DNA of 35,172 bases from a virus. Every line of letters begins with the position of its first letter. Within the stretch, counting starts at the first letter, position 1. Under the pieces are notes generated by a model. It did no database searches. It was not told where the DNA came from and saw nothing but the letters and a program-made list of their open reading frames with translations. Location of the stretch: positions 1 to 35,172 of IMG/VR virus record IMGVR_UViG_3300025104_000003; one strand, written 5' to 3'. Made by a program: the position numbers and the translations under genes. Of this stretch, positions 3,054 to 19,082 are shown piece after piece.

Positions 3054-4533
3054 AAAAGTAAATAATGTATTCATTCAAGTCATTGCCGATGCGAGTATTC
3101 GTATGGGCATGTCTGAACACTTCGCTCGTTATGTCAAAGGGTATCAATTCCAACCCAAATACAAGGCCAGGATTTGGGACGGCAAAATCCGTTTCTTCCA
3201 ATATCAAAACGGCTTCATCTATTGCGGTTTGATTAAGGACGTCCTCGAATATTGCAAAGAGAACGGTCTTAAGGTTAAAGTTGATGATGAAGTCAAAAGC
3301 CTATTCTATTTCAAGAACAATTGTTCTGAATACATTGACAGGCTTGAATTGTCGGCCCACGGAAACAAAATCGAATTCCGTGACTATCAGAAAAAGGCTA
3401 TTGTGGCCGCAATCTCCCAAAAGCGAAAGCTAATCCAATCACCTACCAGTTCAGGTAAATCGTCTATCATCTACGGCATCACAAGATATCTGCTTGATAA
3501 CGTTTTTGAGCATGAGCGTATCCTAATTGTTGTGCCTACTATTGGCTTGGTGACACAGCTCAAATCCGATTTCAAAGATTACTCTACGCTGAACGGATGG
3601 GACGTAGATGAATATGTCAGCACGTCCACTGAAAGACACAGCAACAGAAACAAACGTGTTCTGATTACAACATGGCAATCAATCTACAAGAACGACCCTG
3701 AATGGTTCTTGCCGTTCCGTGCCTTGATTGTGGATGAGGTGCATCAAGCGACTGCAAACAGCTTGGTTGGCATTGGCAAGAAATGTGATGCCGAATTCCG
3801 AATTGGTTTGTCTGGCTCAATCAACGATGAAGACGAAACCTCAGAGATGACCTTGAGGGGTCTGTTCGGATTCAAAATGGTTACGACAACCACCAAGCAA
3901 TTGATGGAAGATGGAACCATCGCTAAGCTTAAGGTGAATTGTGTTCATATCAAATATGACACAACGGTTAGACTACCTAAAGATTATCAGAAAGAGATAG
4001 ACTGGCTTATCAAACAAAATGAGCGCAACAAATTTATCATAGAGCTTGCCAATAATCTAGATGGCAACGTTTTGATTCTGTTCAGCTTGGTCGAGAAGCA
4101 CGGCAAGGTCCTAAGAGAATTGGCTAAGAAATATGACAAGGAACTTTTCTTCGTCTACGGTGGAACAGATGCAGATCAACGTGAGAAAATTCGTCAGATC
4201 GCTGAAACCCACAAAGGATGTATTATCCTTGCATCATATCAGACTTTCTCAACGGGTGTCAACATCCGGAACATAAGACACATCGTTTTTGCTTCACCCA
4301 CAAAGTCTTTCTCTAGAGTGATCCAATCAATCGGTCGTGGTCTTCGCATCAGCGCAACAAAGACCGAATGTGATGTCTATGATCTGTTTGACGAAATCTA
4401 TGGATCATCAAAAGACCCTAATACATATAATTTTTCATTCAAGCATTTCATTGAGCGAGTGAAAATCTATATCAAAGAAGGTTTTGAGTACAAAATTGAT
4501 AAAGTTAACCTTGAGGTAACATTATGCAATTAG
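3034..4533 (+). CDS. uvsW: UvsW-type DNA/RNA helicase (superfamily 2)
   Basis: An ATP-dependent branch-migration and R-loop-unwinding helicase; in T4 it ends origin-dependent replication initiation and promotes recombination-dependent replication. The 499-residue length matches T4 UvsW (503). In order: an N-terminal domain containing GYQFQPKYKARIWDGKIRF, like T4's substrate-recognition domain; Q-motif region FRDYQKKAI; Walker A SPTSSGKS (about 136-143); DEVH box LIVDEVHQA (about 232-240); motif III GLSGSI; and motif VI QSIGRGLRIS. It stops with TAG, one of few TAG stops in the window, and the next gene starts inside its last codons. Confidence 0.93.
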   Translation: MFDVEIRKVNNVFIQVIADASIRMGMSEHFARYVKGYQFQPKYKARIWDGKIRFFQYQNGFIYCGLIKDVLEYCKENGLKVKVDDEVKSLFYFKNNCSEYIDRLELSAHGNKIEFRDYQKKAIVAAISQKRKLIQSPTSSGKSSIIYGITRYLLDNVFEHERILIVVPTIGLVTQLKSDFKDYSTLNGWDVDEYVSTSTERHSNRNKRVLITTWQSIYKNDPEWFLPFRALIVDEVHQATANSLVGIGKKCDAEFRIGLSGSINDEDETSEMTLRGLFGFKMVTTTTKQLMEDGTIAKLKVNCVHIKYDTTVRLPKDYQKEIDWLIKQNERNKFIIELANNLDGNVLILFSLVEKHGKVLRELAKKYDKELFFVYGGTDADQREKIRQIAETHKGCIILASYQTFSTGVNIRNIRHIVFASPTKSFSRVIQSIGRGLRISATKTECDVYDLFDEIYGSSKDPNTYNFSFKHFIERVKIYIKEGFEYKIDKVNLEVTLCN

Positions 4534-4985: not shown

Positions 4986-6104
4986 ATGAAAAGATTTGAC
5001 GATTGTCTCACCTTTAGCCACAGCAGACATCTTGAAGTCAAGCAAGAGCACATGTCTCGACTGTTTGCTGAATCGTGTCTTTCCAAAGGGTACTCCTCGA
5101 AATCGAAGATGGCTGCCCACCATTACATTGGCAGTCTAGTAGGTAACCTAGTTGAGGCATTGCTCTTACATCGGAACCTTGCAATCAAAATTTCTGAGAC
5201 TGATCCCACACCTAGCGTCAAGAACAAAATCTTGGAAGGCATGAAACGGCTTCAGATGATTGGCGAGGTGCGAAAGGGTTATTCTTTCAAAACGACAACC
5301 TTGGAGATTCCCAAAAGTGACTTGACTAAGATAGAACCTAACCACTCGATTCTGAACGTCTTTGACCCAACCCGTATTAAACCCAGTAAAGCGTGGTCTG
5401 TCATTGTAAGAAAGGGCAACGAAGAAATTCCGGAGAAATCTTTGGCAGAAGAACATTCCTTGTTGTATCGCTGCGCTTTGAAATTTCAGAAACAAGTGAA
5501 TGTGCCGATTCGTTCATTCAGACGAATCTTCAACGATGACCTAGAGTCGGGCGGGCGCGTATACAGCAACTACCAACAGATGAGCAAAGACATGCGCTCA
5601 TTGATTACAATCGGAGGGGAAAGGACTGTAGAGCTAGACTATCGCTACAATCAGATTCGAATGCTGTTTGCTTTGTCGGATGTTGAGGATGACGGCGATC
5701 CCTATTCGTGGTTTGATGAAGTGGACAGAAACACTGTCAAGAAAGCGATGAATACACTCATAAATTCGGAAAATCCAAAACGAGTGTTTTGCGACATGCG
5801 CTGGGATGCTCCTTTCAGATGGTCTTCTGAAAAAGCTGACCGATTCATTGCAGAAGCATACTCTCGTTATCCCATCCTTCAGAAGATGAAGGGTTCGGGT
5901 GTTGGTTTGAAGCTTCAGAAGATTGAGGGCGACATTTCGCTTGCAATCATGCGCCATGCACTGTATAATGACACGGTGGTGCTTCCGATCCACGACTCTT
6001 TTATTGTTCGAGAATCAGAGGCCGAGCATTTTAGATATATAATGGAAGAAACATGGAATCAAATCGTAGGGTATGTCAAAAAATCGGCAAAAATGCCGTT
6101 GTAA
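4986..6104 (+). CDS. Polymerase-like protein with polA/T7-RNAP-type motifs A, B and C
   Basis: A 372-residue protein of an uncharacterised family that I have seen in phages and mobile elements. The C-terminal half has, in order: GGRVYSNYQ and a basic segment MSKDMRSLI (about 189-208); ELDYRYNQIRMLFAL (216-230), like motif A with Asp218 and Arg225; DRNTVKKAMNTLIN (about 247-260), like motif B with Arg then Lys-Lys; and LPIHDSFIV (333-341), like motif C, where HDSF is the form used by T7-type RNA polymerase (PolA has HDE). The order and spacing suit the palm/fingers of the polA-T7 RNAP superfamily, but the protein is far smaller. The N-terminal 100 residues are helical and basic. No exonuclease motifs are seen. 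It could be a primase-polymerase, a terminal transferase or an inactive relative. Confidence 0.55.
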   Translation: MKRFDDCLTFSHSRHLEVKQEHMSRLFAESCLSKGYSSKSKMAAHHYIGSLVGNLVEALLLHRNLAIKISETDPTPSVKNKILEGMKRLQMIGEVRKGYSFKTTTLEIPKSDLTKIEPNHSILNVFDPTRIKPSKAWSVIVRKGNEEIPEKSLAEEHSLLYRCALKFQKQVNVPIRSFRRIFNDDLESGGRVYSNYQQMSKDMRSLITIGGERTVELDYRYNQIRMLFALSDVEDDGDPYSWFDEVDRNTVKKAMNTLINSENPKRVFCDMRWDAPFRWSSEKADRFIAEAYSRYPILQKMKGSGVGLKLQKIEGDISLAIMRHALYNDTVVLPIHDSFIVRESEAEHFRYIMEETWNQIVGYVKKSAKMPL

Positions 6105-6202: not shown

Positions 6203-7090
6203 ATGAAGCAAATTTCCAGCATGTTTTTGCGTAACGTAACCTGCATTGACCACGCCTTCGTGAACAACAAGGGTTTTATCGAGGGTTGTTCTTATCATCA
6301 AGAAATAATCGTGACGGGTGAAGTTGATGAATATGAACAAGTTGTGGTTGACTTCTCAGCAGTTAAGAAGCAAATCAAGGCAATCATTGATGCCAAAGAA
6401 ACAGGCTTCGACCACAAGCTATGGATTATCAAGGGTTGGTCTGATTGTCAAGTAATTGACCTAGAGAACGGGTATGTTCGAGTTGTGACCCCGCACCACA
6501 TCTTGGTTGCACCTTGGAACGCACTCAAGATTGTAGAAGGATTTCACAAGTATCAGACGAATCCTTTTGATGCAGTTGAAACCCAAATGTCTAAAGAAGT
6601 TGAAGCTGGTCTTAATGAGGCGAACGGTGTTGATTGCATAAAGGTTCAAATCAAATTGACAAAGCAGGTCTTTGGAGAAGATGCAGTTAAGTTCACTTAC
6701 TTTCACGGTCTGAAGCATTCAAGCTCTTGGGGCTGCAACAACATCGCCCATGGTCATACCTCATTCGTTGAAGTGTATGATGACCTAGGACAGAGAATCA
6801 AGGAAGTCGAAAAAGTTATCGCTCATTACCTCGATGGCGCAATGTTGATTTTCAAGGAGAACCTTGAGACTCCCAACAAAATCTCCTATGAGACCCCTCG
6901 AGGCAAATTCAGTTTGTCATTCACCGAAGATGTCAAGACGATTGTCATGGAACAAGAAACCACAATCGAAAATATTGTGGAGCATGTCTGTGAGCGAATG
7001 AAACCTGTTCTTGACTTCTATGCGGTCTCTAAAGTATTCATTTCAGAGGGCCTACAAAAAGGAGCTCTTAAGCAAATTGTTCATAAATAA
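6203..7090 (+). CDS. Tandem QueD/PTPS-like (6-pyruvoyl-tetrahydropterin synthase fold) protein
   Basis: QueD makes 6-carboxytetrahydropterin on the route to preQ0 and 7-deazaguanines, which some phages put into DNA. The 295-residue protein looks like two related halves. The first has a His near residue 17, SYHQE near 31, then VVVDFSAVKKQIK and FDHKLWII, matching the family's GxVxDF...K and DHxxLN blocks. The second has YFHGLKHSSSWGCNNIAHGH (about residues 165-184), matching the Cys...HGH zinc/catalytic block, though with C-x4-HGH instead of C-x3-HGH. Single-domain QueD is about 120-150 residues, so this is double length with motifs shared unevenly between halves. Start ATG follows GAGG by seven bases. 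No other queuosine genes are in view, so the role is open. Confidence 0.5.
   Translation: MKQISSMFLRNVTCIDHAFVNNKGFIEGCSYHQEIIVTGEVDEYEQVVVDFSAVKKQIKAIIDAKETGFDHKLWIIKGWSDCQVIDLENGYVRVVTPHHILVAPWNALKIVEGFHKYQTNPFDAVETQMSKEVEAGLNEANGVDCIKVQIKLTKQVFGEDAVKFTYFHGLKHSSSWGCNNIAHGHTSFVEVYDDLGQRIKEVEKVIAHYLDGAMLIFKENLETPNKISYETPRGKFSLSFTEDVKTIVMEQETTIENIVEHVCERMKPVLDFYAVSKVFISEGLQKGALKQIVHK
7082..7089 (+). promoter_or_regulatory. T4-type late promoter candidate (CATAAATA)
   Basis: CATAAATA matches 7 of 8 bases of the T4 late promoter TATAAATA. It overlaps the stop of the QueD-like gene and lies about 65 bases before the membrane-protein/fibre operon. Confidence 0.45.
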
Positions 7091-7545: not shown

Positions 7546-7838
7546 ACACAGCAATTTGGCAAATGGCAAGTGGGATTACTTTGTTCTTCATAATCCTTTC
7601 TGTTATTTTACAATACCTAGCAAATAGATCATCCCATCAAGACGCAGGAAAGATGGATGATTTAATTTCACAAAACAAGAAGCTTTTTGACATTATTTTA
7701 GATTTGCATACTCTGATTTCCAATCTAAATAAAGATTTAGAAAGATTGACTAGAGAGAACGAAATTCTGAAACAAGAAGTTAGAGCCTTGCATGATAGGG
7801 TAAATAATTTGCAGATTCAAATGACACCCAAGGAATAA
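7542..7838 (+). CDS. Single-pass membrane protein with long coiled coil
   Basis: A 98-residue protein: N-terminal membrane segment (about residues 8-26, N-out/C-in or the reverse not decidable), then a long heptad-rich helix from about 40 to 95 (ISNLKDLERLTRENEIL type repeats). The architecture resembles an inner-membrane spanin or a membrane-anchored tether. It overlaps the upstream membrane protein by the ATGA arrangement, so the two are probably made together and may form a complex. No lysozyme is adjacent, so a lysis role is only a guess. Confidence 0.65.
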   Translation: MNTAIWQMASGITLFFIILSVILQYLANRSSHQDAGKMDDLISQNKKLFDIILDLHTLISNLNKDLERLTRENEILKQEVRALHDRVNNLQIQMTPKE

Positions 7839-7842
7839 GACA

Positions 7843-8199
7843 ATGCAACCAGCAACAATTGATTTGACAATCTATCAAGGTAGCACTTTCTCTCAAGCAT
7901 TTCAATGGAAAACCGGAAATCCTCCAACGCCAGTTAATCTGACAGGTTACACTGCCAGAATGCAAATTCGAGAGAAATTGACTTCTCCAAACCCGATCAT
8001 TACAATGACTACAGAGAATGGCGGAATCGTGATCACTGATGCTGAGAATGGTTCATTTTCATTAGAAATTTCTGCAACAGATACAGCCGCCTTTACTTTC
8101 AAAAGTGCAGTGTATGATCTGGAATTCATAAGCCCATCAGGATTCGTGAGGCGCCTATTTGAAGGTAGCGTTTCATTGTCACCGGAGGTAACTAGATGA
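7843..8199 (+). CDS. Baseplate/fibre adaptor-type beta-sandwich protein
   Basis: A 118-residue protein of a kind common in phages and prophages next to tail fibres (BppU N-terminal-like). Diagnostic pieces are [47 protein letters not shown] and [20 protein letters not shown], ending in SLSPEVTR. In homologues this domain attaches fibres to the baseplate or neck. It overlaps the following collagen-like gene by the ATGA arrangement, which supports stoichiometric synthesis with the fibre components. Confidence 0.7.
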
Positions 8200-8570
8200 C
8201 AACCGATGTGATTGTCTTGGTTCAACCCGAGCAGGTTGTTGTAAACACTCGAGACAAAGTAACGGTAATTGAATCATCATCTGCTCCCGTTGTTATTTCA
8301 CAACTATCGGAAGGCCCCCAAGGTCCACCAGGACCTTCGGGCAGAGATGGTTTAGATGGAGCTGTTGGGCCCGTAGGTCCGCCGGGTCCGCCGGGTCCGC
8401 CGGGTCCGCCGGGTCCGCCAGGTCCCATCGGGGACGCCAACGGCGCACTGCTGGTTAGCAATGCCCTTTCAGAGCTGGCCACGGACCCCGACACCCAAGT
8501 CCGAGCCCAAACCAATCTTGGACTGGGTAATATTGATCCTCTTGCATATTACATTCTAGCTAAGTCATAA
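8196..8570 (+). CDS. Collagen-like tail-fibre protein
   Basis: A 124-residue protein with about 13 uninterrupted Gly-X-Y triplets (residues about 40-78), including five consecutive GPP triplets, flanked by a beta-rich N-terminus (about 35 residues) and a short C-terminus with the fibre motif [15 protein letters not shown]. Collagen triplets form a triple helix, so the protein is expected to be a trimeric rod or hinge in the fibre. The GPP run is encoded by a nearly perfect 9-base DNA repeat, which may vary in copy number. Base composition becomes GC-rich from here on. Confidence 0.75.
8377..8425 (+). repeat. 9-bp tandem repeat coding GPP triplets
   Basis: Near-identical copies of GTCCGCCGG encode consecutive Gly-Pro-Pro triplets. 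The last copy differs by one base. In-frame gain or loss of 9 bases would lengthen or shorten the fibre rod. Confidence 0.8.
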
Positions 8571-13477: not shown

Positions 13478-14758
13478 TTGGGTACACTTGGCTTATTTGC
13501 CATTTCAAGCACCCGAGGCATTATGAAAACCTATTTCCCAGATGACGGGAAACTCCAAATTGTCAATATTGGCGACGCAAACAAAGACATCTCTTTGGCT
13601 ACTAAGCTATACCATGATATTGGTGGCCTTAAGCCAGATACCGCAAACAAAATTACTCGTCTATTGTTCAAGCTAAAGTCTCGAGCAATCACATCTAAAA
13701 GCTTTGGTGAGAACATTGTTCGTGAACTCATCAAAGAGATTCAATATCTGTCACATAGACCGCACCCTGTTATCTTGAATGTGGTTAAGCAGTTTGAGTC
13801 AGGTGCTGCAAACATCAAACAAGTTGCTAAAGCATTCTTCATGCTGATCAAAGCGCGTAAGAAAGACTTTGGTCCCATCTCTCAAGAATTTTACGGCATC
13901 GCTCGTCAATATCAAATCTATCTGAAGGACATTCCCGACATTGGTTTGGCTCCAGCAGACGCTGTTTCAACCGCTGCAATTAACACCGCCGTTCCCCATT
14001 CAACAAATGGCACCGCGCCTGTTGCTCCAGTTTCTGCCGTTGTCAATCAAAAACCCAAAGCAGACAAAATTCAAACCGTTGCAAAACCTGCAACAGTTTC
14101 AGATGAAGATTTCTATTTGATGCTGTGGAAGGCGACCTCACGTAGCGAAATCACAAAGCTATTGAAAGAGCGCGGCTATACTGATCTATTTGGTGATCTT
14201 CTTAAGAAAGCGACCGACTATTTGATCCCTTCAACAAGCGACCGAGAAGAACATTTCAAGATGATTATGTCCGTCATGCCTGATATTGAGACATTCAATA
14301 AGGCATTCGGCTACTTTATGAAGAAAGACGTTAACTCTGAACATCTTTGGCGCATGATTCTTCTTTACAAGGTTGCAATGGGTAAGAACGCTGCTGAAAT
14401 CAAGGCAGGTTTGACCGCTGCAAGTCTACCTCTACGTAAGTTGTTCTCAGCCCGTACAATAGGTACAATCAACGGCAAGACTAAGGAAACTTTGAAGCGC
14501 ATGGTGTTCGATGTAGTTATCAACGAATTCCAGCGTAAGATTGTTTCGGCCGGACCTACAGACGACATTGATGCATTGTTTGAGTTGGCTGAAAAAGAAT
14601 TGGATTTAATGGCGAATGCTTTCAGAGAAAACAAATGGCTCGGCAACTTATCATCCTTCCCTAATGAAAGCACGCTAACAGAAAAAGAGAAGCTAAAGTA
14701 TTTGATTGCTTTCTTAAGCAAGGCCCGCGTTCACATTACAAGGAATATGTTGAGATAA
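13478..14758 (+). CDS. Large uncharacterised protein, N-terminal part of the putative ADP-ribosyltransferase locus
   Basis: A 426-residue frame if TTG 13478 is the start, but the coding-like sequence continues in frame upstream to 13313 without any ATG, GTG or TTG (ITNQIAENSLYTNPTELADL then KDKEKVASAFFINF), so the true start is probably earlier and unusual or disrupted. The protein is mostly helical and basic, with a Pro/Ala/Thr-rich low-complexity linker near residues 153-200 separating two helical domains. No catalytic motif is seen. It ends at TAA 14756 while coding continues in the +1 frame into the next ORF, so the two may be one gene. Late-type promoter upstream. Function unknown. Confidence 0.6.
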   Translation: MGTLGLFAISSTRGIMKTYFPDDGKLQIVNIGDANKDISLATKLYHDIGGLKPDTANKITRLLFKLKSRAITSKSFGENIVRELIKEIQYLSHRPHPVILNVVKQFESGAANIKQVAKAFFMLIKARKKDFGPISQEFYGIARQYQIYLKDIPDIGLAPADAVSTAAINTAVPHSTNGTAPVAPVSAVVNQKPKADKIQTVAKPATVSDEDFYLMLWKATSRSEITKLLKERGYTDLFGDLLKKATDYLIPSTSDREEHFKMIMSVMPDIETFNKAFGYFMKKDVNSEHLWRMILLYKVAMGKNAAEIKAGLTAASLPLRKLFSARTIGTINGKTKETLKRMVFDVVINEFQRKIVSAGPTDDIDALFELAEKELDLMANAFRENKWLGNLSSFPNESTLTEKEKLKYLIAFLSKARVHITRNMLR

Positions 14759-14816: not shown

Positions 14817-16478
14817 TTGAATGAAAAGGATAAAGAAGAACAGCTAGATTATCTGAAGAAAAACATTTTCAGAAAATCTGCTTATACAGACGGTTTGATG
14901 GGTGTTGTTCAACTACCTTTAAAACGTTTCACATATCTTGTAGGGAAAGAAAAGGCAGACGCTTATCTAAATGCTTTGGGTGTGGAAGAGAAGAAAGCAT
15001 TGCTGGTTTCGGCTTCAGATTTATTCTTCAACCATATGACGGCATCAAACATGAACGAGACTATCGTTCTTGTTCTGGATGATCCGCTTTGGTCAAAGAA
15101 CATTCCAAAGGACGTCCTTATCTCCCATGCACGGAAGCGCAAAGATGAATTGACTCTTGAAGTTGCTAAGAAACTAACCGATTTCTATTCACGGTATGAC
15201 CGCGGATTGAAACCTTCTGAAAGGCGTGAATTCGAGCACATGTACTTTGGCGCAATCGAAATCTTGTTAAGCAAGAGCAAAGATGCTGCTGATGATATTT
15301 TCTTGCAGATGCCTTTGAATGAGCGCCGCTCATTGGTTGGATATTTAATTCATGGGCGTTTCATGGCCGAAGCTTTGAAGAAAGTTCAAGGCGATGATGC
15401 TCTCATTAAGCCTTTGACTCCTGTTACCGAAGAGCGTCTAGTTCAGATTCTTAAGTACAATGACATTGAGACACCTCGTCGTCCTAGCGTAAAAGAGAAA
15501 GACAAGCTATCTGAAGTGTTGAGCAGAACGGTTGTCCAGCAGCCATCGGTCAACGATCTTCATGTGGATATCATTGAATTGGATGATGAGGCTCTTGAGA
15601 GAATGTCTGTTGAGTATGATGCATTCAACCGCTATGCTCACGGTGAGATCGCTTTGAAAATCAAACGAGCTTTCAACGTTAGTGTTCCTTTGCAGGAAGA
15701 AGGTTTCAAGCGTTGGTTGCAGAAGATGGCAGACGAGGGGATTGATCCTAAAGTAATGAAACCAATCTTCTACGGCACAGGTTCTATTGGCGCATCGATG
15801 ATCCTACGCTACGGGTTCAAAGTTATCAAGTCCAATGACCCATCAGTTGTTGGCCGTATGTTGGGAGACGGTATCTACTTCTCAAACGTTTTGGACAAAG
15901 TTGCTCAATATATTGGTGACGAAGGTTATAGCCGTCGTCGCGGCACACAAGGTTATATTTTTGAGATGGAAGGTTCACTAGGCATGCACCGCCGGGACTA
16001 TCGTTGTGCTGGAACAGGCGCAAAAGAAGATGAACGTGATACCGTGTCACCGGAATGGGCGGTGTTTAACCCCAATGAACAGTTGCGTATTTACAAGGCT
16101 TATCATGTTGAACTAATCGGCAAAGAAGAAATGAACAAAATGAAGGCAAAGCATCTTGGAACGAATGAATCAACGGCAATTGAGATCAAGAGCTTCAAAG
16201 AATTTATCAATGAAGGAACAGGCGACATGCCACACTGCATCACTTACATTTTCATGGATGGCAACATTCCAATCAGCGAAAAACAAGCCGTTGACTTCAA
16301 GGACTTCCAGGCCAAGAAGATGGGCAGAAACGTCAAACTCGACTGGACAGGTTCGGGCCCCGCTGTTATGATTTACAACAGAAAAGAGTCAAAAACGTAT
16401 GTGGTTCGTTATACCCGAGAGTTCATGGAGAATAGGGAAGGCGAATTGACAGAGTATTTGAAGTTGATTAAAAAGTGA
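14817..16478 (+). CDS. PARP-like ADP-ribosyltransferase domain protein
   Basis: A 553-residue frame if TTG 14817 is used; it is open back to 14754 with no standard start. Residues about 1-230 are helical and unrecognised. Residues about 245-435 resemble a PARP catalytic domain: YAHGEIALKIKRAFNV (like PARP1 THNAYDLEVIDIFKI), then PIFYGTGSIGASMILRYGF (319-322 YGTG at the HG[ST] position), GDGIYFSNVLDKVAQYI (GIYFS 352-356) and FNPNEQLRIYKAYHVELI with Glu421 in the place of the catalytic Glu. The triad would be Tyr-Tyr-Glu instead of His-Tyr-Glu. T4 packages its own ADP-ribosyltransferase (Alt) and injects it to modify host RNA polymerase; this protein could be analogous. The C-terminal 90 residues are a separate small domain. 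Confidence 0.65.
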   Translation: MNEKDKEEQLDYLKKNIFRKSAYTDGLMGVVQLPLKRFTYLVGKEKADAYLNALGVEEKKALLVSASDLFFNHMTASNMNETIVLVLDDPLWSKNIPKDVLISHARKRKDELTLEVAKKLTDFYSRYDRGLKPSERREFEHMYFGAIEILLSKSKDAADDIFLQMPLNERRSLVGYLIHGRFMAEALKKVQGDDALIKPLTPVTEERLVQILKYNDIETPRRPSVKEKDKLSEVLSRTVVQQPSVNDLHVDIIELDDEALERMSVEYDAFNRYAHGEIALKIKRAFNVSVPLQEEGFKRWLQKMADEGIDPKVMKPIFYGTGSIGASMILRYGFKVIKSNDPSVVGRMLGDGIYFSNVLDKVAQYIGDEGYSRRRGTQGYIFEMEGSLGMHRRDYRCAGTGAKEDERDTVSPEWAVFNPNEQLRIYKAYHVELIGKEEMNKMKAKHLGTNESTAIEIKSFKEFINEGTGDMPHCITYIFMDGNIPISEKQAVDFKDFQAKKMGRNVKLDWTGSGPAVMIYNRKESKTYVVRYTREFMENREGELTEYLKLIKK

Positions 16479-16518: not shown

Positions 16519-16553
16519 ATCGTTTTGATTGGTATCTCTACGTGAAGGATGAC

Positions 16554-19082
16554 ATGTCTTTTTATACTCATTTTCATAATCGTGGCGGCGCAATTTTCCT
16601 ACGTTGGATTGACGAGCAAGGGCGTCGCCGTTCAACGGTGGTTAAGGATTTTCAGCCTACCTTGTATGTCAAAACCAATGAAGAAACGAAATATCAAACT
16701 CTCGAAGGATTCTACCTAAAGCCCGTCCGGACCGAATCTATCAGCGATGCAAAGCGATTCATTGAAGAGTATTCAGACGTTGAAGGCTTTGAGGCTTACG
16801 GCAACACCAATTGGGATTATTCCTACATCAACCAACGTTGGGAACAAGACATCAAATATGATGAGTCGTTGATTCTCACATATTACCTTGACATTGAGAC
16901 GGAAGTGTCTGACGAGTTCCCCGACCCCTATCTGGCTAAGGAACGCATCAACGTCCTGACAATCTTTGACGGCAAGAAGTTTCATTGTTGGTGTTTCCAA
17001 GACGCACGTCCTGGAATGAAACATCCGTTCCCTGTGGAGTTGAAGGTGTTCTCGGATGAGGATTCGATGCTCAGGAACTTTGTGGCGTTTTGGGCGGGCA
17101 ACTACCCTGATGTAGTGACAGGTTGGAACACGGAGCGTTTCGATATTATCTACCTCTTGAATCGTATTCGCCAACGTCTGGGTGAAGACAAGATGAAGTC
17201 CTTGTCGCCTGTTGGAATGATTCGTGAATACAACATCGACCAGAAGTCAACCTCGTTTGAAATCAAGGGCATTGAGCATCTGGACTACCTTCAGTTGTTC
17301 AAGAAGTACATGCCAGGCGAACGGGACTTTTCATTGGATGCAGTGTGTGAAGACTTCCTCGGCGAACAGAAGCTAGAGAACCCCTATTCGACATTCAGAG
17401 AATTCTATGAGAAGTCGTTTGATTTGTTCGTGGATTATAACATCCACGACGTTTCCCTTGTCTACAAACTAGAACAGAAGTTGAAGCTGTTGAGCCTCAC
17501 GTTCTCGATTGCATATCTGGTTAAGATGAACTACTCAGATGTGTTTGGAACCGTCAAGCCGTGGGACATTTTCATTCAGAACTCCCTTTACAAAGAAAAC
17601 AAGTTCGTTCGTTGCAAGACAAGCCCAGGTGTTGCAGACCGTCAAATCATGGGCGGTTTCGTTATGACACCAGTTCCCGGTCGATATGAATGGGTTGTGT
17701 CTTTTGATGCAAACTCCCTATATCCTTCAATCATTCGGACATGGAACATTTCGCCAGAGACAATCTTGTCAGAGCATGAGGTGCCTGATGAGCTAATCAA
17801 GTATTATGACAAGATTCAGATTGATGAGTTGTTGAAGGATATGAGCGAACTATCTGCGCTCTTAAAGAAGTACAATCTTACAATGACGGCAAACGGTCAT
17901 TTTTTCCGTCGAGACAAACAAGGCATCCTGCCTCTCCTAACGGGCATGGTATATAACGGTCGCGTGGATGCGAAGAACGAGATGAAGAAATACAAGAAGG
18001 CTCTCGTGAATGAGACAGATCCTGTCAAGCGAGAGGATCTCGAGGCGCGCATTGCATCTCTTGATAACAAACAGCTGGCTCTAAAGATTCTACTAAATTC
18101 TCTCTACGGCGCAATGGCGAACGCTTACTTCCGATTTTTCGATTTCCGATGTGCCGAGGGTATCACGTCTACGGGCCAATTCTTCATTCAGAAGGTTGGT
18201 CGTATGGCGTCAAGTTATATTAACAAGATGAGTGGCGTGGAAGATTCGTTGGTCTATATCGACACTGACTCAAACTACTTCTCATTGAAGTCGTTGATAA
18301 AGCGTGCGGGTTTGGATAAACTACCCACAGCCAAGCTGGTTGATGCACTGGACAAGGTGTGTGAGGAAAAGATCGGTAAGAAGATCGATGAGGCATGTAA
18401 GTGGATTGGCGACGAGCTAAACGTCTTTGACAATCAGTTGGCAGTCAAGCGTGAGAAGATTTGTGAATCTGCGATTTGGGTTGCGAAGAAGCGCTACGCT
18501 TTGTATGTATGGGACAACGAGGGTGTTCGCTACAAGGAGCCCGAGATTGCAGTGACGGGTTTGGAGGTCAAGCGTTCAAGCACCCCTAAGATATGCCGTG
18601 ATTCATTGAATGATGCGCTTAGAATCTTCCTTGTCGGCACGGAACAAGAGCTGCAAGAGTTCGTTAAACAGACCCGTGAGAAGTTCTTCAAGCAGGATCC
18701 TTATACAATTGCAATGCCCTCGGGCGTCAAGGGGTTGGACAAGTATGGCGATGCGAAAACCATCTACAAGCAAGGTTGCCCCCAGCATGTCCGAGCATCA
18801 TTGATCTACAACCATTTGCTTAAGACCCACGGCATTGCAGGCAATTACAACCCGATCATGGAGGGCGGCAAGATGCGTAGGGTACCACTTCGTATGCCAA
18901 ACCCTATCGGTGAAGATGTGATTGGGTTTGTGGACAAGCTGCCTAAAGAGTTCGGCCTCCATGAATATGTTGATTATGATGATTTGTTCCAGAAGACCTT
19001 CATGAGTGCTCTTGAGCGCATTGCAGGCGCCGTTCGTTGGCAAACAGAGAAGAAAGCAACTCTGGATGACTTCTTTTGCTGA
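16554..19082 (+). CDS. 43: Family B DNA polymerase (gp43), with 3'-5' exonuclease
   Basis: The replicative polymerase, 842 residues from ATG 16554 (T4 898). That start has AAGGA five bases upstream, and MSFYTHFHNRGGAIFLRWID aligns with the start of T4 gp43 (KEFYISIETVGNNIVERYID); GTG 16542 is less likely. Exonuclease motifs: YLDIETE (Exo I, near residue 113), TGWNTERFD (Exo II) and YNIHDVSLV (Exo III). Polymerase motifs: SFDANSLYPSII (A), KILLNSLYGAMAN (B), YIDTDS (C) and AKKRYAL (KKRY). The C-terminus ends in TLDDFF, fitting a sliding-clamp-binding peptide. It is transcribed from its own promoter rather than as a simple read-through of regA as in T4. Confidence 0.97.
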   Translation: MSFYTHFHNRGGAIFLRWIDEQGRRRSTVVKDFQPTLYVKTNEETKYQTLEGFYLKPVRTESISDAKRFIEEYSDVEGFEAYGNTNWDYSYINQRWEQDIKYDESLILTYYLDIETEVSDEFPDPYLAKERINVLTIFDGKKFHCWCFQDARPGMKHPFPVELKVFSDEDSMLRNFVAFWAGNYPDVVTGWNTERFDIIYLLNRIRQRLGEDKMKSLSPVGMIREYNIDQKSTSFEIKGIEHLDYLQLFKKYMPGERDFSLDAVCEDFLGEQKLENPYSTFREFYEKSFDLFVDYNIHDVSLVYKLEQKLKLLSLTFSIAYLVKMNYSDVFGTVKPWDIFIQNSLYKENKFVRCKTSPGVADRQIMGGFVMTPVPGRYEWVVSFDANSLYPSIIRTWNISPETILSEHEVPDELIKYYDKIQIDELLKDMSELSALLKKYNLTMTANGHFFRRDKQGILPLLTGMVYNGRVDAKNEMKKYKKALVNETDPVKREDLEARIASLDNKQLALKILLNSLYGAMANAYFRFFDFRCAEGITSTGQFFIQKVGRMASSYINKMSGVEDSLVYIDTDSNYFSLKSLIKRAGLDKLPTAKLVDALDKVCEEKIGKKIDEACKWIGDELNVFDNQLAVKREKICESAIWVAKKRYALYVWDNEGVRYKEPEIAVTGLEVKRSSTPKICRDSLNDALRIFLVGTEQELQEFVKQTREKFFKQDPYTIAMPSGVKGLDKYGDAKTIYKQGCPQHVRASLIYNHLLKTHGIAGNYNPIMEGGKMRRVPLRMPNPIGEDVIGFVDKLPKEFGLHEYVDYDDLFQKTFMSALERIAGAVRWQTEKKATLDDFFC

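Follow-up and report, generated by a model that had tools for sequence, protein, structure and literature searches.

Profile comparisons show that the 372 aa protein encoded at positions 4986-6104 of the window (the whole 35,172-nucleotide stretch of viral DNA analysed here) belongs to the divPolA2 family, being homologous to the family representative AUR84708, and structural modelling predicts with good confidence that it contains a palm and fingers fold. The family was defined in a 2024 Virol J paper on DNA polymerase swapping (PMC11348598), and the window protein is therefore a new member of an already published, uncharacterised family; what we add is the spread of the family in bacteria with its link to integrases and resolvases, a probable winged helix, the pair of residues at the sugar-selecting positions, evidence of purifying selection and a degenerate paralogue. 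The explanation that we favour overall, with moderate confidence, is that this divPolA2 minimal polymerase is an accessory template-directed enzyme that would be started at the sites bound by its N-terminal domain.

Family membership and selective constraint

The open reading frame begins with ATG and occupies exactly 4986-6104 on the plus strand. The features to which we refer throughout, all on this strand, are the following:

4986..6104 (+): divPolA2/PHROG 4756 gene, minimal PolA/T7-RNAP-type polymerase (PHROG 4756, E=2e-35; homology to AUR84708)
4986..5360 (+): residues 1-125, forming the N-terminal domain, a probable winged helix (AF2 model, weak profile and structure matches)
5361..6101 (+): predicted palm and fingers catalytic core, residues about 126-372 (structural matches)
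5550..5558 (+): GGR hairpin G189-G190-R191, putative counterpart of the PolA TGR motif (invariant R191; low-score profile alignment)
5637..5639 (+): motif A, catalytic Asp218 (Asp in 18/18, 40/40 and 49/50 homologues)
5652..5654 (+): Gln223 at D+5, the sugar-selecting ("steric gate") residue (most homologues have His)
5727..5765 (+): motif B, R248-x3-K252-x7-N260, carried by helix 248-260 (conservation, model)
5991..5996 (+): motif C, H336-D337 (conservation; profile alignment to T7 RNAP H811-D812-S813-F814)

Search of the PHROGs placed the window protein in family 4756, annotated as of unknown function (E 2e-35), and a literature search on phrog_4756 returned no paper. The PHROG 4756 match of genome MG592441 is AUR84708 itself (E 1.5e-93), a protein that is matched by the profile of the window-protein family (2.9e-40) and also by the profile of the window clade alone (5.4e-6). 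The Pfam scan of the window protein gave no match at E<=10 and the NCBIfam scan of protein and family no match of note, while the PADLOC scan of both yielded sub-threshold matches only, thus lending no support to a defence system. When PDB was searched with the single window sequence only chance matches were retrieved, and nothing was found with an 18-member profile.

Homologues were identified by tblastn in 126 phage records, mostly of Vibrio, Aeromonas and Pseudoalteromonas phages (ICP1 gp100 being among the Vibrio phage homologues), and also in alphaproteobacterial plasmids. In the phylogenetic tree the window protein and two close relatives formed a separate clade comprising three phages (support 100/100, branch 1.8), which was placed, with weak support (85/61), near other phage members. 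Among the genomes of the host phylum searched (400 and 300), matches were found only in the contig bearing the window and in one other genome, where the match carries one in-frame TGA.

Comparison with the closest relative, from which the gene has come close to saturation at synonymous sites, gave a dN/dS of about 0.07 (0.15/2.14), similar to the value of 0.056 for the neighbouring UvsW-like helicase gene, and judged from these substitution rates the window gene is under strong purifying selection. The gene order UvsY, UvsW-like helicase, 110 aa protein, window gene and 295 aa protein is kept in three phages; the relatives that share it are 76% and 62% identical to the window protein and lie in other viral contigs. 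A fragment or a decaying gene is ruled out by the dN/dS together with this conserved synteny. The 295 aa neighbour (window 6203-7090, PHROG 14221), syntenic in the three phages, weakly matches a QueD-like 6-pyruvoyl-tetrahydropterin synthase. Elsewhere in the window, the ORF at 8196-8570 encodes a small protein in which a GPP repeat resembles collagen.

Predicted catalytic core and sugar-selecting positions

The sequence-only reading had assigned the protein to the PolA/T7-RNAP superfamily on the strength of three strings, ELDYRYNQIRMLFAL for motif A, DRNTVKKAMNTLIN for motif B and LPIHDSFIV for motif C, all of which are present and in this order. A loose A-B-C pattern nevertheless arose in 221/20,000 composition-preserving shuffles, so that the motif evidence from a single sequence is weak and it is conservation among homologues that settles the motifs. 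In 18 homologues, phage and plasmid sequences obtained from plain tblastn with no motif patterns used, the invariant residues besides the start Met were R191, R204, D218, Y240, R248, K252, N260, H336 and D337. These include the counterparts of the TGR arginine, the motif A Asp, the motif B R-x3-K and the motif C HD of Klenow and T7 RNAP. Larger sets of 41 and 50 homologues agreed on the conserved motif residues, motifs A and C being partly ascertained in these sets because most members were fetched with patterns including A or C.

The window family could be aligned to the PolA block TGR...NLQN...R...DYSQ with low scores, and residues R627, K631, Y639, H811 and D812 of T7 RNAP share local spacing with the window-protein motifs; the likeness of HDSF in motif C to T7 RNAP, noticed from the sequence, is supported, and the profile alignment pairs motif C with H811-D812-S813-F814. 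Profile-profile comparison aligned the matching motif blocks in the right register with low probability, the scores being 35 for the window family against RNAP and 19 against PolA, neither of them significant. The control comparison between RNAP and PolA, which are known relatives, scored no better (19.0, with an unrelated helicase at 16), so this method is too weak to decide here.

The AlphaFold2 model built from the 41-sequence alignment (mean pLDDT 90, pTM 0.88) contains the palm domain on which the sequence-only reading had made its assignment depend, together with the fingers. D218 ends strand 212-218 and H336-D337 lie in the turn of hairpin 333-335/338-342, the canonical places for these residues. 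The best structural match in VIA-align was the yeast mtRNAP 6ymw (Z 14.8, rmsd 3.3 Å, 235 residues), mitochondrial RNAPs coming first and being followed by T7 RNAP 8dh3 (Z 13.3) and the apicoplast PolA apPol 5dkt (Z 13.0), with matches spanning residues about 126-370, whereas family A DNA polymerases topped the list in Foldseek against PDB (best E 1.3e-4). As the differences in Z are only of about 1-2, structural matching does not separate DNA from RNA polymerases. Conserved catalytic residues and predicted fold thus support both the superfamily assignment and the register of the motifs. The opinion that the protein lacks room for a full polymerase is not supported in that form, since its 245 C-terminal residues model as palm and fingers, equivalent to the TV-Pol minimal core (PMC2579912). 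An exonuclease is missing from the window protein, and a canonical thumb is absent in divPolA2 according to PMC11348598. From the conserved residues we infer an active two-metal nucleotidyltransferase, in which R248 and K252 would hold the triphosphate and D218 and D337 the metals.

The residue five positions after the motif A Asp (D+5) selects the sugar in this superfamily, being Glu in PolA and Gly in T7 RNAP. It is Gln223 in the window protein and mostly His in the homologues (H 37 and Q 3 in set A4; H 37, Q 9 and N 4 in set A7). The position eight residues after the motif B Lys (K+8), counterpart of PolA Tyr766 and T7 RNAP Tyr639, is Asn in the window protein (Asn260) and in the family, while G542 and Y639 were invariant in 7 phage RNAPs. 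The window protein hence has neither the Glu at D+5 and Tyr at K+8 that form the family A signature nor the Gly and Tyr of single-subunit RNAPs. At the level of aligned residues, the combination of His/Gln/Asn at D+5 with Asn at K+8 matches neither the DNA nor the RNA polymerases compared, and because it fits neither class the use of dNTP or NTP is unreadable from sequence.

These observations bear on the possibility that the protein is a compact DNA-dependent RNA polymerase whose N-terminal domain would recognise the promoters of some of the phage genes and so direct their transcription, which we regard as unlikely. In structure the protein comes nearest to the mitochondrial and T7 RNA polymerases, RNAP outscores PolA in the profile-profile comparison, RNA_pol was the most frequent sub-threshold Pfam match (3/41 members, best E 0.011), motif C reads HDS as in T7 RNAP, and an RNA polymerase is one of the options put forward in PMC11348598. 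However, D+5 is occupied by the bulky His, Gln or Asn rather than by the Gly of T7 RNAP, the counterpart of Tyr639 is Asn, the protein is too short to accommodate either an N-terminal promoter domain of the T7 type or a specificity loop, neither the RNAP nor the PolA profile match reached significance, and in phage KASIA a family member coexists with a true T7-like RNAP encoded by the same phage.

Genomic setting and proposed role

The N-terminal domain (residues 1-125) lies mostly outside the structural matches to polymerases. Residues 1-150 modelled alone with AF2 gave a mixed alpha/beta fold (pLDDT 85), and a 62-sequence profile of the domain matched PadR/MarR regulator chains (best E 0.006). 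Structural matches of the N-terminal model were led by MarR-type proteins with weak Z values of 5-6, Foldseek with this domain giving no significant match. Taken together, the model and these matches indicate that the domain is probably a winged helix.

The window belongs to contig C7 of genome G000 (128,635 bases), which has the appearance of an almost complete genome of a T4-like phage; this contig had been binned into the MAG of a bacterium. The claim that the phage already encodes gp43 was confirmed by a gp43-type PolB at 16542-19082 (E 5.9e-271). The same phage encodes a DNA primase (C7:89675-90730, 4e-70), a DnaB-like helicase (8.6e-113), a clamp loader, a UvsX-like recombinase, UvsY and a UvsW-like helicase. 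The presence of PolB rules out the role of phage replicase, and that of the primase rules out a stand-in for a missing primase. With PolB, primase, helicase and clamp loader of its own in the phage, it is reasonable to consider the window gene as accessory to the phage replication machine. A separate PolA signal (E<=1e-3) was found in 12/14 other carrier phages, in 7 of them over the Pfam cut-off. A 553 aa ORF (window 14817-16478) matches PHROG 18612, of unknown function, and weakly a "polymerase" PHROG (E 1.8e-4); the ORF preceding it (13478-14758) matches the N-terminal part of PHROG 18612, and because the two match the same PHROG they may represent a single gene that has been split.

A repair or translesion DNA polymerase, filling gaps or extending recombination intermediates, is a further reading, in our judgement an improbable one. 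The UvsY and UvsW-like helicase neighbours are kept in the three related phages, the bulky side chain at D+5 would suit dNTP selection, the exonuclease is absent as in error-prone enzymes, and PMC11348598 proposes such a role. Set against this, the genes that surround the homologues in other phages and in bacterial elements do not make up repair loci.

Scanning of GTDB species representatives gave 135 confirmed family matches, of which 80 loci were kept; judged by homology, the family occurs widely among bacteria. Most bacterial members are in Alphaproteobacteria, others being found in Gamma- and Deltaproteobacteria, Mycolicibacter, Bacteroidetes, Lentisphaeria and Oceanobacillus. Of these loci, 39/80 (a raw count) have a tyrosine integrase or a serine resolvase within 6 kb, and in 26/80 a tyrosine integrase is upstream on the same strand. 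PF00589 was the commonest family among the 108 upstream neighbour proteins scanned (13/108), and D5 helicase was not among their 25 commonest Pfam families. No integrase or resolvase was recognised beside the window gene in the T4-like phage.

One locus of a Pseudodesulfovibrio MAG (L116:4166-7089) carries two tandem family copies, of which one is intact (D, HDS), whereas in the second neither catalytic Asp is left, Gly standing in place of D218 and Glu in place of D337 (GY...HES). Such joint loss is expected if the two Asp act as a pair, and the degenerate copy is possibly a pseudo-enzyme partner. The existence of this copy would also accord with the family being a catalytically inactive palm protein that serves as a DNA-binding regulator, yet almost every member, the window protein among them, keeps both Asp, R248 and K252, which is not expected of a non-catalytic family and makes this reading very improbable. 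Two or three family-profile matches each, whole or partial, were seen in loci L026, L033, L107, L125 and L137, those of L026 at 3087-4394 and 7816-8370 flanking a DNA methyltransferase; paralogues are also reported for divPolA2 in PMC11348598.

Placing these results into the explanation that we favour, an accessory template-directed polymerase, the winged-helix-like N-terminal domain may bind particular DNA sites and the palm and fingers core may start or extend short strands at the bound sites, both steps being put forward more weakly. In integrated elements such site-directed starting would serve the element's own replication start, whereas in virulent phages with their own replisome it would contribute to priming, repair or transcription as an accessory step; a connection with recombination-dependent replication is conceivable, UvsY and the UvsW-like helicase being neighbours of the window gene. 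Against this explanation, the phage has its own primase and general priming is therefore not lacking, the surroundings of the gene differ from phage to phage, as PMC11348598 also states for divPolA2, and the scores behind the winged helix are weak (Z near 6, E 0.006). A broader and more tentative proposal, which we offer as a doubtful but testable one, is that divPolA2 and the integrase-linked bacterial proteins constitute one family of site-directed starter polymerases, in which the winged helix would pick the DNA site and the core, with its own sugar-selection pair, would begin strands without a primase for the element's replication or transcription.

The link between the divPolA2 of virulent phages and the integrase-linked bacterial proteins offers a testable common role. 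The family is an extra polymerase kept under selection by many large phages (ICP1 and phages of Aeromonas, Vibrio and Rheinheimera) and by many bacterial integrative elements; it illustrates how compact a functional PolA/RNAP core may become and is relevant to the divergence of RNA and DNA polymerases within the superfamily.

Comparison with known systems

With the T7-like and mitochondrial single-subunit RNAPs (PF00940) the window protein shares the predicted palm and fingers fold, the order of the motifs and the HDS of motif C; unlike them it has no T7-type N-terminal domain and is half the size, and the PF00940 model gave no match over the cut-off for the window protein (best family member E 0.011). 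The family A DNA polymerases (PF00476) show the same order of motifs, including the TGR-like motif, RxxxK and HD, and structural matches of Z 11-13, but differ in having an exonuclease; the PF00476 model had no match to the window protein (E<=10), nor was one listed for the 18 or the 41 members. The CcPol-MP primase of SCC elements (PMC10061031) resembles the present family, by description, in being an element-borne A-family polymerase outside the replisome. CcPol acts with the SSB-like partner MP (PMC10061031), whereas no SSB-like partner was identified for the window protein.

TV-Pol proteins (Iyer, Abhiman and Aravind 2008) are described in PMC2579912 as minimal enzymes resembling PolA and T7 RNAP that mobile elements carry together with integrases, resolvases or D5 helicases; a primase-polymerase function was predicted for them. 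The window protein is like them in its minimal core with the hairpin Arg, two Asp and RxxxK in the fingers: R191, D218, D337 and R248/K252 are present, and D238 in the fingers corresponds to the conserved Asp of the TV-Pol core. The loci of its bacterial homologues fit the TV-Pol description, with integrases or resolvases near the gene and with many bacterial groups in common. The window protein has no D5 fusion, and no D5-like helicase was recognised beside its gene; its N-terminal domain gave a mixed alpha/beta model, that of TV-Pol having been predicted to be all-helical (PMC2579912). The TV-Pol-bearing phage Ma-LMM01, the one published TV-Pol member compared, gave no match to the window-family profile, so that divPolA2 is at most a possible branch of TV-Pol.

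The closest known system is divPolA2 itself, described in PMC11348598 as having an active palm and an N-terminal globular domain but neither an exonuclease nor a known thumb, as being carried besides a regular polymerase, with a Dali Z of about 12 to mtRNAP, and as a proposed "repair polymerase or RNA polymerase". The paper, whose PSI-BLAST was run against Caudoviricetes, names no relative for the N-terminal domain, and the part consulted describes no bacterial members. As in divPolA2, the window protein has palm motifs A, B and C with the catalytic Asp, has mtRNAP among its top structural matches, lacks an exonuclease, bears its own N-terminal domain rather than a canonical thumb and occurs beside a regular DNA polymerase. 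It differs in being shorter (372 aa), in having Gln instead of His at D+5, in the recombination-gene neighbourhood of its gene and in belonging to the separate clade of three phages.
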